Shown one piece after another: positions 41,333 through 49,563 of a DNA stretch of 50,451 nucleotides. The stretch lies in assembly GCA_903898755.1 (NCBI GenBank), contig CAIUGT010000109.1:1-50451 (forward strand), in the 5' to 3' direction. The translations under genes and the position numbers were made by a program. The notes beneath the pieces were generated by a model, which saw only the letters and a list, made by a program, of their open reading frames with translations, was not told the DNA's origin and ran no database searches. Within the stretch, counting starts at the first letter, position 1. Each line of letters begins with the position of its first letter. This DNA comes from an uncultured bacterium (GTDB lineage: Bacteria; Planctomycetota; Phycisphaerae; Phycisphaerales; SM1A02).

Positions 41333-42190
41333 TCACGGCTGATTCAATTGCTGAAAGCTTGCTTGTGCTGCGGTGACTTGCGCCTTGTAGCCATCGATTT
41401 GCTTTTGCATTTGCTGCTTGGCGGACACCATTTGATTCAGTTGTGCTTGCAATGCTGCGGGATCTGAAGGAGATTGTTGCGCGCCAGCAGGCATGCCGCC
41501 CGCACTTTGGCCGTTCATGGAACCCATTGAGCCCTGCGCTCCCATGCCACCCATTGCAGCGCCGCCGCCCACAAGTTGATCTGCGGGAGCGCGTGTTAAA
41601 AGCAATCGAACTGTTCCAACAGCTGTGCCACTTTCGGAATAGAGCATGGTCCAGCCAATTTGATCGGGTTGTGAAAAATCAATGAGCGATGTGATACTGC
41701 GAGGCGCATCGGTTTGAGTTGGACTTGCATTGAGGGATTGAAATGTAAGTTGCGAACCCGTGGAATTAAATGAACCGCGTTGCCAAATCATGCTTTGATC
41801 TTGATCGGTTAAGAGCGTGCGCTGGAAAAATTGTCCGCCGCTATTGAAACCAATGGTGTCGACTTCTTGAATTGCGGCCGCGCCGTTGTTGAGAACGGTG
41901 TCACCGAAAAGAAATACGCCGCCAAGCGCCCATTGCCAAACGGCGCGGCCTTGTAAACGCTTTTCAACCTGTCCCGTTGGAGAGGCGGCTTCACCGGAAA
42001 TATTCCACGCGCCAACAAGACGCGCAAGAAGTTGGTGCGCAGTCTCCACGGAAATTTGTGTAGGGGGGACTGGCGGCGCAGTTTGCGCCGAAGCGACCGC
42101 AGTTGAAGTGCGCGAAAACAATATTGATGCAATCAGAATTGTTGTAATTGAGAAAGCAAACACAATTTGTGCGCGGTTAAAATTTTTCAT
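41333..42190 (-). CDS. Secreted DUF1579-like protein with C-terminal coiled coil
   Basis: Not a named gene. It has an N-terminal export segment (IVFAFSITTILIASILFS), then a domain with LARLVGAWNISGEA, RLQGRAVWQWALGG and GWTMLYSESGTAVGTVRLLLTR that resembles DUF1579, a lipocalin-like fold of unknown role. A Gly/Met/Ser-rich linker and a Gln/Ala-rich helix (AALQAQLNQMVSAKQQMQKQ) close the protein and probably form a coiled coil. The 285 aa protein is probably exported. It is followed by upp at close distance, and the GH63-like gene ends 54 bases before its start. Confidence 0.7.
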   Translation of the reverse strand: MKNFNRAQIVFAFSITTILIASILFSRTSTAVASAQTAPPVPPTQISVETAHQLLARLVGAWNISGEAASPTGQVEKRLQGRAVWQWALGGVFLFGDTVLNNGAAAIQEVDTIGFNSGGQFFQRTLLTDQDQSMIWQRGSFNSTGSQLTFQSLNASPTQTDAPRSITSLIDFSQPDQIGWTMLYSESGTAVGTVRLLLTRAPADQLVGGGAAMGGMGAQGSMGSMNGQSAGGMPAGAQQSPSDPAALQAQLNQMVSAKQQMQKQIDGYKAQVTAAQASFQQLNQP

Positions 42191-42244: not shown

Positions 42245-44989
<2,745 letters not shown>

Positions 44990-45046
44990 TGGTATATGAG
45001 AGCATGTTTAACGCATCTTTACAAGCAAATTGGTTACGCTGTAGAA

Positions 45047-45628
45047 ATGAATTGTTGTACGACCATTTTTTTAGAAACTGGCGCAAAAATTGTGGCGGCA
45101 GTCAGTTTGTTTTTATTTGTAAGCGCCTGGAATTGTGGGTGTGAGACAACGACAACGCCAGTTGATGAATCGGGGTGGCTCACGAAGCGCGATGATTCAG
45201 CGGCGGTGCAGAAAGATGTGAAGGCGGATGGGGGACTGAAGGCCACAGCGGTAAACCGCGGGCAAGAAAAGCCATGGGACAAGCCTATTCCAGTTGAGCA
45301 AAAATCCGCATTTGTTGCCCCAAATGCGCAGCAATTGAAAGAGTATTTGGCTGGGGCGACTTGGATTAAGTTGGATGAAAACGGGACTCGTCGACGAAGT
45401 TTACAACTAAAGACTGATGGTTTTTTTGTTGCCAAATCAGACGGTCAAAGCGGCGAGTTACCGGCATTTGATGGATTGAAAGTGCAAGCGAATGGAAGTT
45501 GGTCCGTGAAAGAAAATGAATTGCGATTGCTTCCTTATGCGGGTGACCCAGTAGTGGTGCAACTTCAATGGTTGGGGGACAAGCGAATCATGATGTTCAA
45601 CGGCGAGTCGTGGATACGGGGCGAGTGA
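45047..45628 (+). CDS. Small exported lipoprotein, unknown function
   Basis: The frame is open from 44957, but ATG 45047 gives a signal-like N-terminus: hydrophobic GAKIVAAVSLFLFVSAW, then NCGC and a polar Thr-rich start, a loose lipobox. After a polar linker (residues 40-95), a compact domain follows: LKEYLAGATWIKLDENGTRRRSLQLK, then the final strand-rich part LLPYAGDPVVVQLQWLGDKRIMMFNG, with a lipocalin-like repeat of strands (quoted in parts). 193 aa. No named family. It is divergent from the GH63-like gene and convergent with the sigma factor gene. Confidence 0.65.
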   Translation: MNCCTTIFLETGAKIVAAVSLFLFVSAWNCGCETTTTPVDESGWLTKRDDSAAVQKDVKADGGLKATAVNRGQEKPWDKPIPVEQKSAFVAPNAQQLKEYLAGATWIKLDENGTRRRSLQLKTDGFFVAKSDGQSGELPAFDGLKVQANGSWSVKENELRLLPYAGDPVVVQLQWLGDKRIMMFNGESWIRGE

Positions 45629-45758: not shown

Positions 45759-46730
45759 TTAACCTTCATCTATGCGCATACGTGCAATTTCTTCGCGCAT
45801 TTGATCAAGCACGCGCATTTTGGCGTGGCGAATAGAAGCTTCGCTCATTTTTAAATCTTGAGCGACGCTGGCGACTGGTTCGCCGCGGACACCGTAGCGC
45901 TCGAAAGCTTCAAGCGTTTTGGGTTGAATATTGGTCCGCACTTTTTCAAGCGCGCGGCGCAGCAAATGCTCCGTCCATTCGCGGTCCCACACTGCGTTCA
46001 ATTCACTTTGTTTTTCCGGTGGATCAAAATCCTCGGGCAAGCCAACGCTTGGACGCTTGCGGCGATAGCGATCGCGAAGGGCGTTCAGTGTGATGCGCTT
46101 GAGATAGCCCCGGAAGCGGCCCTTCGCAGGATCGTATTCAAACATGCGTGATTGCTTGAAAAACCCAAGCATGACATCTTGCAAGATGTCATCCACTTCT
46201 TGTGGCTTTGCTCCGGCATTGCGCGCAAAACCAGCGATCACAGAGCCATACATTTTGGAGAAATCATTCCAGCCAACTTGGCGATCAAGCGTTCCGTCGG
46301 CGCGTAAACGCAACAACATGGACGCACTGGTTTGATATGGATCTTTGGAATCGGTTGGCGGCGGAGGCGGAAGTTCTGGAATTTCCTGTTCACTATCACC
46401 ATCATCCGTGGTTGTGCGCGCGATAAATGTCCACGGACCAATTGTGAGGACATCGCGATCGTGTAAATAAATTTTGTCGTTTGGTTCAAGCCGCACGCCA
46501 TTGAGCAATGTTCCAAGAGAACTTGTGGCGTCTTCAATGCTGGCGCCCTTGCGATCAATTCGAAGCACCGCATGTCTGCGAGATACGGATTCATCTTCCA
46601 GCACCAAGCCAGAATCGGTTGCTCGACCAATGATGCAGGTGGAATTTCCCTCAATGCGAACGCCCGGGCATGCAGGACCGTTGGCTCGAATGAGAGAAAG
46701 AAATTGGATTGTTTTTGACAACGGTGACAT
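45759..46730 (-). CDS. ECF-type RNA polymerase sigma factor with N-terminal FHA domain
   Basis: The 323 aa protein fuses two modules. Residues about 12-105 form an FHA phosphothreonine-binding domain: IIGRATDSGLVLEDESVSRRHAVL (Gly35-Arg36, Ser50, Arg52, His53), then SSLGTLLNGVRL with Asn77-Gly78. A Pro-rich linker (ELPPPPPTDS) follows. Residues about 155-222 are sigma region 2 (EVDDILQDVMLGFFKQSRMF; FRGYLKRITLNALRDRYRRKR), and residues about 255-315 are region 4 (TLEAFERYGVRGEPVASVAQDLKMSE, motif in part). It lies 51 bases behind the kinase gene, so kinase and sigma are probably one transcript and one circuit. No anti-sigma gene is seen. FHA binding to phosphothreonine on the kinase is the obvious model (inference). 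Confidence 0.9.
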   Translation of the reverse strand: MSPLSKTIQFLSLIRANGPACPGVRIEGNSTCIIGRATDSGLVLEDESVSRRHAVLRIDRKGASIEDATSSLGTLLNGVRLEPNDKIYLHDRDVLTIGPWTFIARTTTDDGDSEQEIPELPPPPPTDSKDPYQTSASMLLRLRADGTLDRQVGWNDFSKMYGSVIAGFARNAGAKPQEVDDILQDVMLGFFKQSRMFEYDPAKGRFRGYLKRITLNALRDRYRRKRPSVGLPEDFDPPEKQSELNAVWDREWTEHLLRRALEKVRTNIQPKTLEAFERYGVRGEPVASVAQDLKMSEASIRHAKMRVLDQMREEIARMRIDEG

Positions 46731-46781
46731 TGGACAAGTTGAATATTGCCCGCAAATTGTCGTCGATGCAAGCGGGTAAAT

Positions 46782-48593
46782 TTACTTCTTGACAGGCGCG
46801 TTCAGAGTGTTTGAAAGCGTTGAGGAGAATGCTTTCATTTTCTTAACCAATTTTTCGGATGGCTCTGGAGCATTTTGCAAAGAGGTTGTTGCTTGCCGAA
46901 GAAAAGCCGCGGCATCCGCATTTTGTCCTTCTGCGGCTGAAATACGCGCCAATTCAAAATATGCACGGGCAATATCGTCGGAGTCACTGGGGGATTCCGC
47001 CAAAAATTCAAGGCGAGCCCTGTTGGCGTTGTGGCGAGCCTCACGAAACGAACCATCCTCGCGAAGCGATCCGGCCAAGAGCAATTCTGTTTCCGCAAGC
47101 AAGCGTCCTTGATCGTTTGTTTGAAGCAGTTCAATCGCGCGAGAAAATTCTTGAGTGGCAAGGTCGTTGCGATGTTGAGAGGTCCAAAGGTGGCCCATGG
47201 ACGCACGAACGCGCGCCTCCATAATGGGATCGTTGTTCAGACGAAGTCCAGCAAGTCGACTTGCCTCCGCCAAAATGTCCTGAGAGGTTCGTGGAGCGGC
47301 GCTGGGTTTTGAAACAATTTCCGTAAGCAGCTCCGTTATCAGAATGGTCGCGTCGTTGGCGCCCTGCGAAGAAATCTCCGCACGATCTTTTGCCGCGACG
47401 GCAATGGTTCGTTGCGAATACGCGTTGAAGACACTCGCAGTCAAAGCAATCACGGCGGCCAACCCCAGAGTGAAAGCAACAATGTGGTGGCGAATGGCGC
47501 GCTTGAGCCGTCGCGGCGGAGTGTCGGGGCGAGCCAGCACGGATTCACCGCGGCGAAAACGCTCTAAATCTTGGGCGAGCGCGAGTGCGGAGTCATATCG
47601 ACCGCGCGGATCACGGCAAAGACAACGAGCGATGATTGCATCAAGATCACCACTGAGTGTTGAAATAATTTTGGCTGAAGTTGTATTTCGATTTTGAATC
47701 GCCACTTTCTTTTCATCGATAGAAAGGCCTTCAAATAATTGATGGGCAGCAAGCGTTTTGGAATCATCAGGCAAGCAGTCGGTGAGAAGTCGCAGCATGA
47801 CCGCGCCAAGCGCGTAAATATCCATACGGGAATCAGCCTCACCCGCGCGAAGATTGCGCGCTTCTGGCGCCATGAAAGCTGGCGTTCCAACCAGGGCACC
47901 AGCGCGCTCGTCGGGATTCATGGGATCGAACGCGGCGCGCGCAATTCCAAAATCAATCACTTTCACAACAGCCTCGTCGGCATCAAGTGAAACCAAAATG
48001 TTTGAAGGCTTGAGGTCGCGGTGAATCACGCCGCGTTGATGGGCGTGGTGAACGGCGCGGCAAACCTGCGCCATGAGATCAATCCGTTGACCCAGTGAAT
48101 GACCGGCGACATCGCACGCTTGGGTAATGGGCGAACCCGCGGCCAATTCCATGGCGAACCACGGACGACCATCTGGTGATTCGCCAGCCTCAAAAATTTT
48201 AATCAGGCCAGGATGATCAAGCAGCGCGACAACATGACGCTCGCTTTTAAAGCGCTCTCGACTAGATGAATCCAGCCGATCAGGTCTAAGAATTTTAACC
48301 GCCACCGAACGGCGAAGCGGTTCATCTTGTTCGGCCAGCCACACAATTCCAAATCCGCCCTCGCCAAGCACACTGCGAAGCAGATAGTGACCAATACGAA
48401 TTTCAGGCTTGATTTCTGTTTGACCCAACGCGCTTTGCGGCGCGTTCCCAACGGTGGGCAACATTTCTAAAGCCTTGTTCAGAGCGGAGCGATTGCCGTG
48501 AAGCAACTCGCGCAAGGCCGCGGCGCGACGAGACGCGGGCAGTGAAAGCACCTTGCGAATTGCTTCTTCTGGTGTGATTGCAGGCGACGCCAT
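46782..48593 (-). CDS. Transmembrane serine/threonine protein kinase
   Basis: A 603 aa PknB-type kinase. After an N-terminal about 65-residue helical region, the kinase domain shows GEGGFG (77-82), VAVKIL with Lys100, Glu118 in FKSERH, HRDLKPSNIL (191-200), DFG (214-216) and APE (242-244), so it should be active. A single membrane helix is at about residues 371-390. The outer C-terminal part (400-600) has TPR-like helical repeats (ARVRASMGHLWTSQHR; AYFELARISAAEGQNADAAAFL), likely a sensor or protein-binding domain. It is followed by the FHA-sigma gene, a probable partner. Confidence 0.95.
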   Translation of the reverse strand: MASPAITPEEAIRKVLSLPASRRAAALRELLHGNRSALNKALEMLPTVGNAPQSALGQTEIKPEIRIGHYLLRSVLGEGGFGIVWLAEQDEPLRRSVAVKILRPDRLDSSSRERFKSERHVVALLDHPGLIKIFEAGESPDGRPWFAMELAAGSPITQACDVAGHSLGQRIDLMAQVCRAVHHAHQRGVIHRDLKPSNILVSLDADEAVVKVIDFGIARAAFDPMNPDERAGALVGTPAFMAPEARNLRAGEADSRMDIYALGAVMLRLLTDCLPDDSKTLAAHQLFEGLSIDEKKVAIQNRNTTSAKIISTLSGDLDAIIARCLCRDPRGRYDSALALAQDLERFRRGESVLARPDTPPRRLKRAIRHHIVAFTLGLAAVIALTASVFNAYSQRTIAVAAKDRAEISSQGANDATILITELLTEIVSKPSAAPRTSQDILAEASRLAGLRLNNDPIMEARVRASMGHLWTSQHRNDLATQEFSRAIELLQTNDQGRLLAETELLLAGSLREDGSFREARHNANRARLEFLAESPSDSDDIARAYFELARISAAEGQNADAAAFLRQATTSLQNAPEPSEKLVKKMKAFSSTLSNTLNAPVKK

Positions 48594-48680
48594 GAATGCA
48601 TACTAAGCGGCGCAGCGTCAAAGTTGATATTTAATTTTTGCATGAAATGACAATGTTCGAAGTTCACAAACGCAGGGTCG

Positions 48681-48694
48681 TTTCAAATTTGAAA
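48681..48694. promoter_or_regulatory. AT-rich 14-base palindrome in a divergent promoter region
   Basis: TTTCAAATTTGAAA is a perfect palindrome between the divergent kinase and SDR genes, followed by a further half-like ATTCAAATG. It could be an operator for either gene. Short AT palindromes also arise by chance. Confidence 0.3.
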
Positions 48695-48738
48695 TTCAAA
48701 TGTATGAAACATGCTGGAGAACGGTTACCTTTGCGCTC

Positions 48739-49563
48739 ATGCCCAACCGTTCATTACAAGGAAAAACCGCGCTGGTTTGCGGTGCCACGCAGGGAATAGG
48801 TTGCGCCGCCGCGCACGCTTTGGCCGCGGCGGGAGCAAAGGTGATTCTGTGTGGACGCAATGATGAAGGCCTTGCCAAAGTCCTTGCTGAATTGCCGAAA
48901 TTGGCGGAAGTTGGGTCTGGGGCTACGTTGAATGTTGCGCGCCAACATGAAATCATGTTGGTGGACCACGCAAATCCATCAGCGGTGGAGAAGGCGGCCG
49001 ACGCGTTCGTTGCGCGAATTGGCGCGGTGCACATTGTGGTTGTGAATACGGGCGCACCAGAGGCTGGATATTTAATAGATGCATCAACAGAAGAAATTGA
49101 TAAGTGTGTTGCGCAACTTTTATCCACCGCGCACAAGTTGGCGCAAGTAACCGCGCCGGGAATGCGCGCTGCAAAATATGGGCGCATTATTGTGGTTGGA
49201 AGCACAAGTATTGAGCGGCCTATTCGTGGTCAAGGCGTGAGCAATGTTGCACGCGCCGCCATGGCAAACTGGACTCGCACTCTTGCCGGCGAACTTGGTG
49301 GATTTGCAATTACTGCGAATTTAATCATGCCCGGTTCAACACGCACGCAAAGATTGGAATCAATCATCGCGGGCCGCGCAAAGCGTTCGGGTAGTTCAGT
49401 GGATGAAGTAGGGGCCTCCATGATTGGAAAAATTCCGGTGGGGAGATTCGCGTCACCACAAGAAATTGCCGCCGTGATTGTGTTTATCGCTTCACCAGCG
49501 GCCGCGTATGTAAACGGCGCGTTGATTCCCGTTGATGGCGGAATGTTGTGCATGCAGAGTTGA
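48739..49563 (+). CDS. SDR-family oxidoreductase, atypical active site
   Basis: A short-chain dehydrogenase/reductase of 274 aa. Seen: the cofactor loop CGATQGIGCAAAHAL (Gly15 to Gly21), CGR at the next strand, a NAG-like motif as VVNTGAP, Ser155/Ser157 in VVGSTS, and the ending VVIPVDGG-type sequence (GALIPVDGGMLC). The classical YxxxK is missing: the aligned position reads SNVAR, Ser168 and Arg172, with the same 13-residue spacing from Ser155. From memory, a subfamily with SNxxR exists. It may therefore be a binding or differently active protein. ATG 48739 is chosen; a longer start at 48700 adds 13 residues. Confidence 0.88.
   Translation: MPNRSLQGKTALVCGATQGIGCAAAHALAAAGAKVILCGRNDEGLAKVLAELPKLAEVGSGATLNVARQHEIMLVDHANPSAVEKAADAFVARIGAVHIVVVNTGAPEAGYLIDASTEEIDKCVAQLLSTAHKLAQVTAPGMRAAKYGRIIVVGSTSIERPIRGQGVSNVARAAMANWTRTLAGELGGFAITANLIMPGSTRTQRLESIIAGRAKRSGSSVDEVGASMIGKIPVGRFASPQEIAAVIVFIASPAAAYVNGALIPVDGGMLCMQS

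Follow-up and report, generated by a model that had tools for sequence, protein, structure and literature searches.

An FHA-ECF sigma factor encoded next to a membrane kinase

The question raised by this locus is how a sigma factor that carries its own FHA domain might be connected to the transmembrane Ser/Thr kinase encoded next to it, and in particular whether the FHA domain docks the sigma factor on a phosphothreonine made by this kinase. In the window, that is, the whole stretch of 50,451 nucleotides that was analysed, the two genes lie on the minus strand in the order kinase, 51 bases, FHA-sigma gene, with the coordinates, strand and spacing exactly as given in the initial annotation (Table 1). 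The list of terminator-like sites has none in this gap, and the two genes are likely to be co-transcribed. The layout is that of an EmbR-PknH-like pair, in which the genes of an FHA-bearing regulator and a kinase adjoin in a single likely operon. The pair is flanked on one side by the gene of an SDR oxidoreductase and on the other by that of a 223-aa protein that matches no family. None of the four neighbour genes scanned (41333-42190, 42245-44989, 44957-45628, 48700-49563) belongs to an anti-sigma family, so that the absence of an anti-sigma gene noted initially holds for these genes. Profile matches in the whole assembly number only 7 for kinases, 11 for sigma region 2 and 4 for FHA; given these small numbers and the recurrence of the pair in 15 of the 16 genus genomes, the adjacency exceeds what is expected by chance.

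Table 1. Coordinates of the features discussed, in positions of the window
Feature	Coordinates	Strand	Basis or remark
MGH1-like/GH63-like glycoside hydrolase gene	42245..44989	minus	Pfam, on the window and L044 proteins only
FHA-ECF sigma factor gene, 323 aa	45759..46730	minus	FHA and sigma profile matches
ECF sigma domains, residues 132-323	45762..46337	minus	Pfam, TIGR02937, model
Region 2.2 acidic motif EVDD, residues 178-181, DAED equivalent	46188..46199	minus	
Flexible linker, residues 108-131	46338..46409	minus	pLDDT <50 at 109-128; length and sequence variable
FHA domain, residues 10-107	46410..46703	minus	Pfam, residue conservation, model, fold search
Gap from kinase gene to sigma gene, 51 bases	46731..46781	minus	
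Transmembrane Hanks-type Ser/Thr kinase gene, 603 aa	46782..48593	minus	Pkinase profile, fold search
Probable extracytoplasmic helical, TPR-like region	46785..47423	minus	Model, weak TPR match
Transmembrane segment, about residues 371-390	47424..47483	minus	By eye; inside modelled helix 371-428
Kinase catalytic domain, residues 65-347	47553..48401	minus	
Thr47 (LPT), nearly invariant, at the start of a disordered stretch	48453..48455	minus	Weak candidate docking site

Domain architecture of the sigma factor

The fusion of an FHA domain with an ECF-type sigma factor in a single protein, as proposed initially, is borne out by matches to PF00498 (FHA) at residues 33-98 (E 9e-16), to PF04542 (Sigma70_r2) at residues 160-226 (E 4e-11) and to TIGR02937 (sigma70-ECF) at residues 156-314, the latter above the cut-off. 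A Pfam search for sigma region 4 gives no match at E up to 1, and the model of the protein contains C-terminal helices at residues 270-322; the overall organization is that of an ECF factor, with regions 2 and 4 and no region 3. The FHA and sigma domains have no firm placement relative to each other in the predicted model (pTM 0.38).

The N-terminal domain combines the FHA fold with the G-R, S-R-x-H and N residues. G35, R36, S50, R51 and H53 are invariant in the 62 distinct FHA-sigma proteins, drawn with profiles built without 14 locus rows, and N77 is present in 58 of these (the exceptions are L117, L121 and the second copies in L083 and L084). We take these six positions to be the phosphothreonine site, and with this assignment the site proposed for checking in homologs is indeed retained. 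In a Foldseek search with the FHA model, structures of FhaA and GarA occupy the first places and EmbR ranks 19th; FHA domains that bind phosphothreonine are thus among the closest solved folds. Comparison of the window gene with six relatives gives dN of 0.014-0.149 for the FHA part against dS of 0.48-2.5, that is, dN is far below dS in the window clade; in the sister group, the FHA dN is about 0.29-0.30 (three pairs), more than twice the dN of the sigma part (0.11-0.14). The FHA domain of the window is a predicted phosphothreonine binder.

The acidic character of region 2.2 is a general feature of the family: among the 66 of 68 FHA-sigma rows that were scored, all three scored acidic residues are present in 62 and two in the other 4. 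Sigma factors that lack FHA and are encoded next to kinases have all three in 27 of 34 cases. The window protein, with EVDD, does not show the combination of an uncharged region 2.2 and a phospho-acceptor Thr that characterizes ECF43, and the acidic region 2.2 across the family makes an ECF43-type switch in this region unlikely.

The kinase

The 603-aa protein matches PF00069 (Pkinase) with E 1e-40 and contains all of the HRDLKPSN, DFG and APE motifs, which is to say the intact catalytic motifs of a Hanks-type enzyme. Together with a membrane segment that was recognized by eye, this upholds its description as a transmembrane Ser/Thr kinase with an intact catalytic core. In the model, which was built from an alignment of only 12 sequences, helix 371-428 is followed by paired helices at 437-597; the TPR match in this protein (PF13424) is weak (E 0.0016, below the Pfam cut-off). 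A fold search with the kinase model lists kinases, with PknS, the closest solved kinase, in the first place.

In the activation loop of the kinase, there is no conserved Thr besides that of the GT preceding the APE motif. In the PknB/GarA pair, FHA docking reportedly occurs at the activation loop; without a further conserved Thr, docking of this kind is not obvious here. T47 was considered as a docking site and was set aside because, although nearly invariant, it shows no resemblance to the other kinase tails described below; T358, near the membrane, is not conserved. A search of the window genome (G000; assembly 92% complete) with PF13672, the only PP2C phosphatase profile used, gave no match despite the seven kinase matches.

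Distribution of the FHA-sigma family

The family is found in 35 of 61 genomes (that of the window and 60 relatives) at E 1e-15, including all 16 of the genus; in G010 and G012, only half genes are present, at contig ends. Across the taxonomic family of the window, 68 of 181 genomes, from 16 of 45 genera, match at E 1e-60 or better, with the match limited to the sigma part in G012 and G810. In a sample of 298 genomes of the class (about 7 candidates scored per genome), the full-length proteins among the matches listed come from 7 genomes, all of this taxonomic family, and all other listed matches begin at query position 110 at the earliest. In the phylum sample of 392 genomes (about 5 candidates scored per genome), 3 genomes match at E 1e-48 and these again belong to the same family. 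Thus, among the matches listed for these 298 and 392 genomes, no full-length FHA-sigma protein comes from outside the taxonomic family of the window.

A scan of a named genome collection yielded 78 loci, 57 of which encode FHA and sigma in one frame; by their record titles, 39 of the 57 are Phycisphaerae or Phycisphaerales, 14 bear other planctomycete names and 4 are from uncultured bacterium records. No FHA-sigma relative was confirmed in viral contigs. A 1017-aa protein in G021 was discarded as a longer fusion, and only its FHA-sigma part was retained, the remainder resembling, by eye, another frame.

Gene neighbourhoods and phylogeny

In the genus, the kinase gene is located directly upstream of the FHA-sigma gene in 15 of 16 genomes, and in the remaining one (G012) the contig begins inside the sigma gene; the pair is also present in g16 (L052). 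To this extent the two-gene neighbourhood that the initial annotation proposed to look for is conserved, but it is not a property of the whole family. For the 68 distinct FHA-sigma genes, a kinase is encoded just upstream on the same strand in 15 cases, divergently in 8, just downstream in 5 and further off in 11, including four soluble kinases two genes upstream; the flanking DNA covered contains no kinase for the other 29, some of which have short flanks (L089, L093, L101, L108, L204). Sigma genes that lack the FHA part mostly precede the kinase, with the order sigma-then-kinase in 31 of 46 rows.

The sigma and kinase trees both place the window type in one starred 14-row group. The kinase tree further separates the 8 divergent kinases and 3 of the 5 downstream ones as another starred lineage, together with one kinase adjoining an FHA-less gene, and the upstream kinase of L205 groups with kinases found beside FHA-less sigma genes. 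This tree leaves out matched stretches below 200 residues and all further-off kinases (including those of L083 and L084), and it contains neither the two-genes-upstream kinases nor four of the 31 beside FHA-less genes, presumably because of the same length filter. The sigma tree was built without L108 and L058, which are incomplete, and comes with long-branch warnings; two long FHA-less rows, L203 and L126, are at the unresolved base of its FHA-sigma side, and since the L203 protein (G795:C8) aligns to query positions 53-316, its assignment as FHA-less is unsure. The association of one type of sigma factor with at least three kinds of kinase is the strongest sign of a working link, although the common kinase lineage of the divergent and downstream arrangements implies few independent pairings.

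A large FHA-sigma clade of 22 rows has no adjoining kinase, with 2 of its members located about 4 kb from the kinase of a second FHA-sigma copy; this clade counts against a working kinase link. Four genomes of the clade, identified by matching coordinates (G019, G022, G787 and G795), have 10-18 kinase matches each, so that action at a distance is possible there. The loci with a second copy (L083:6004-11251 and L084:5977-11199) encode two FHA-sigma genes within about 4 kb, and the second gene overlaps the kinase gene or is 30 bases away from it; in these second copies, N77 is replaced by Asp. A different arrangement is seen in L208:3709-6900 and L212:5998-9277, where a soluble kinase, a protein that by eye resembles HAD phosphatases and a further frame precede the FHA-sigma gene.

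Relatives of the glycoside hydrolase gene start 3 bases after the sigma gene in three loci (L044:6943-9621, L045:6937-9630, L078:6976-9645), whereas in the window the two are separated by a convergent gene. The glycoside hydrolase gene is a possible target of the sigma factor or a possible third gene of the operon. Autoregulation from an ECF promoter was considered and abandoned because the region upstream of the kinase gene contains conserved TACCAT-like boxes instead of a recognizable ECF promoter. In this stretch (48594-48740), which separates the SDR gene from the divergently oriented kinase gene, TACCATG is found just before the kinase start in 11 of 12 sequences (TAGTATG in the window), and an AGGTA box faces the SDR gene in 11 of 12 (all except L078). 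These boxes might suit leaderless transcripts, and the SDR gene may start at 48740 and not at 48700.

Kinase tails

The tails of the kinases differ between pair types. Two pair types other than that of the window contain a stretch resembling an FHA ligand, an acidic residue followed by Thr and, after two positions, Leu or Met. A strict pattern, [DE]T..[LMIVD] within the last 90 tail residues, is found in 8/8 divergent and 4/5 just-downstream kinases (12/13 together), and a looser version in 8/8 and 5/5 (13/13); the kinases of L083 and L084 are grouped here with the just-downstream set although the pattern count itself tallies them as further off. The strict pattern occurs in only 1 of the 15 kinases upstream of FHA-sigma genes (L205), in 3 of 5 other further-off kinases (L057, L111, L206) and in none of the four encoded two genes upstream. 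Beside FHA-less sigma genes, it is found in 4/31 downstream (likewise 4/31 with the looser version), 1/6 far and 0/3 divergent kinases, and the other six kinases of the window assembly all lack it. The window kinase and its clade lack the acidic-Thr stretch altogether (0/14, one tail being incomplete).

Kinases just downstream of FHA-less sigma genes have a motif of their own: W[FY]...LL is present in the N-terminal tail of 21 of 31 (e.g., L158, L165, L168) and is absent from all 37 kinases that lie closest to FHA-sigma genes, as well as from those otherwise placed around FHA-less sigma genes (0/6 and 0/3). This motif may be a sigma-docking element. Since both tail patterns were formulated after viewing the tails, in rows that are related to each other, they are best treated as leads.

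Possible mechanism and alternatives

We give about even chances to a mechanism in which a phosphothreonine made by the kinase is the docking point for the FHA domain of the sigma factor, so that kinase and sigma factor form a single route from the membrane to the promoter. The kinase would use its outer helical region to sense a signal and would make a phosphothreonine, most likely on itself; the N-terminal FHA domain would dock there and bring the sigma factor to the kinase, which would then phosphorylate or release it to join RNA polymerase. Here we infer docking as such, its site and its sign (activation in preference to holding). This reading is favoured by the retained pairing and the other kinase lineages adjoining FHA-sigma genes, by the conserved residues and low dN of the FHA domain, by its similarity to the FhaA, GarA and EmbR folds, by PknS as the closest kinase, by the tails of the other pair types and by the EmbR-PknH precedent. 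Counted against it are the 29 FHA-sigma genes without a nearby kinase, the loose domain placement in the model, the lack of both an acidic-Thr tail stretch and a further conserved activation-loop Thr in the window clade, the absence of a PF13672 match, and a report, in the part of the literature covered, that phosphorylation of EmbR went undetected in vivo in one study.

The most serious alternative, although an unlikely one, is that the FHA domain reads phosphothreonines placed by other kinases on other proteins and that the neighbouring kinase is co-transcribed without being the docking partner. The FHA-sigma genes that lack a kinase nearby, the 6-21 kinase matches per genome in 11 sampled genomes and the tail of the window kinase, devoid of a ligand-like stretch, all agree with this possibility; the preservation of the pair throughout most of the genus and the pairing of separate FHA-sigma clades with different kinase lineages are at odds with it. 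Distinctly less probable is an intramolecular switch, in which a phosphorylated Thr in the linker of the sigma factor occupies the FHA domain of the same protein, with masking of the sigma domains. GarA and OdhI reportedly bind their own phosphothreonine in this manner, the FHA folds here are GarA/OdhI-like, and some linkers have Thr near acidic residues (TTTDD in the window, ETH in L045 and L047); yet no linker Thr is conserved across 23 aligned proteins, and T134, which is invariant, is also found in 29 of 34 FHA-less relatives (the other 5 are gapped).

We consider it improbable that the sigma domains are activated by direct phosphorylation as in ECF43, at region 2.2 or, in the style of EcfK T106, in the inter-domain linker, with the FHA domain being incidental. 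ECF genes adjoining kinases are already known and, in the part of the source covered, EcfK is phosphorylated by PknS in both regions while keeping one acidic residue in region 2.2; this scheme fits poorly with the acidic region 2.2 of the present family and with the acidic residues that were also seen, by eye, in the inter-domain linker. The least probable reading is that the FHA domain is a phosphate-independent protein contact or a dimer module, given that the FHA fold alone is no proof of phosphothreonine binding but the residues presumed to form the site are invariant or nearly so.

A broader but more tentative proposition, to which we attach somewhat less than even odds, is that a sigma family found so far in one family, Phycisphaerae by its record titles, uses its built-in phosphothreonine reader to sense the output of kinases, and that FHA docking replaced another contact. 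The W[FY]...LL tails beside FHA-less sigma genes, as against the acidic-Thr tails in two groups of FHA-paired kinases, would fit such a replacement; the window kinase group, with neither tail, the FHA-less neighbours in other positions, which lack the W motif, and the post hoc patterns in related rows argue against it. If true, this would extend the known routes by one that runs straight from kinase to sigma factor and dispenses with an anti-sigma factor. The fused reader offers a concrete handle for mutation, since a change of one Arg or Ser would be predicted to abolish kinase control.

Comparison with known systems

GarA, OdhI and FhaA are among the closest FHA folds to that of the window; unlike the window protein, they are said to have no sigma domains. 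The portions covered of eight articles (PMC11032199, PMC8195603, PMC2754498, PMC8103513, PMC8999054, PMC13147305, PMC6213207, PMC9239209) contain no description of a sigma factor fused to an FHA domain, so that the initial impression of an undescribed system agrees with this literature, which excludes the 2021 ECF classification. The combination of an FHA-tagged sigma factor and an adjoining membrane kinase hints at a mode of gene activation by kinases that has apparently gone undescribed.

The ECF43 pairs EcfP-PknT and EcfK-PknS similarly combine a sigma factor with an adjoining Hanks kinase, and PknS is the closest solved kinase here. According to the parts covered of two reviews (2021 and 2022), ECF43 factors are without the DAED motif and acquire the charge when phosphorylated; the 2021 review extends this idea to ECF59, whereas the 2022 review notes that other kinase-linked groups possess a DAED-like motif and might act by a different mechanism, which it leaves open. 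A 2026 paper, likewise covered in part, reports that PknS phosphorylates EcfK, a factor with one acidic residue left in region 2.2 that additionally requires phosphorylation in the linker joining its sigma domains. ECF43 thus lacks most of the acidic motif, in contrast to the present family with its acidic motif and fused FHA domain. Phosphorylation has also been proposed, in the portions covered, to activate ECF59, 61, 62, 217 and 283, four of which have planctomycete examples; in a difference from the window pair, the FHA-less relatives found here, which might belong to such groups, have no FHA domain and are mostly in sigma-then-kinase order. The former ECF87-89 resemble the window protein as planctomycete ECFs with N-terminal extensions, and a review notes that mechanistic data on regulation by such extensions are lacking; the nature of the extensions is unstated in the part covered, and overlap with the present family is possible.

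The nearest precedent is the EmbR-PknH system of Mycobacterium, in which an FHA-bearing transcription regulator and a Ser/Thr kinase are likewise encoded in one operon. In the sources as covered, EmbR docks on the kinase of its own operon, and the FHA domain is reported to be essential for both interaction and phosphorylation. Unlike the sigma factor described here, EmbR is a DNA-binding regulator of the OmpR/SARP type, its FHA domain is C-terminal, and its gene is located upstream of the kinase gene.
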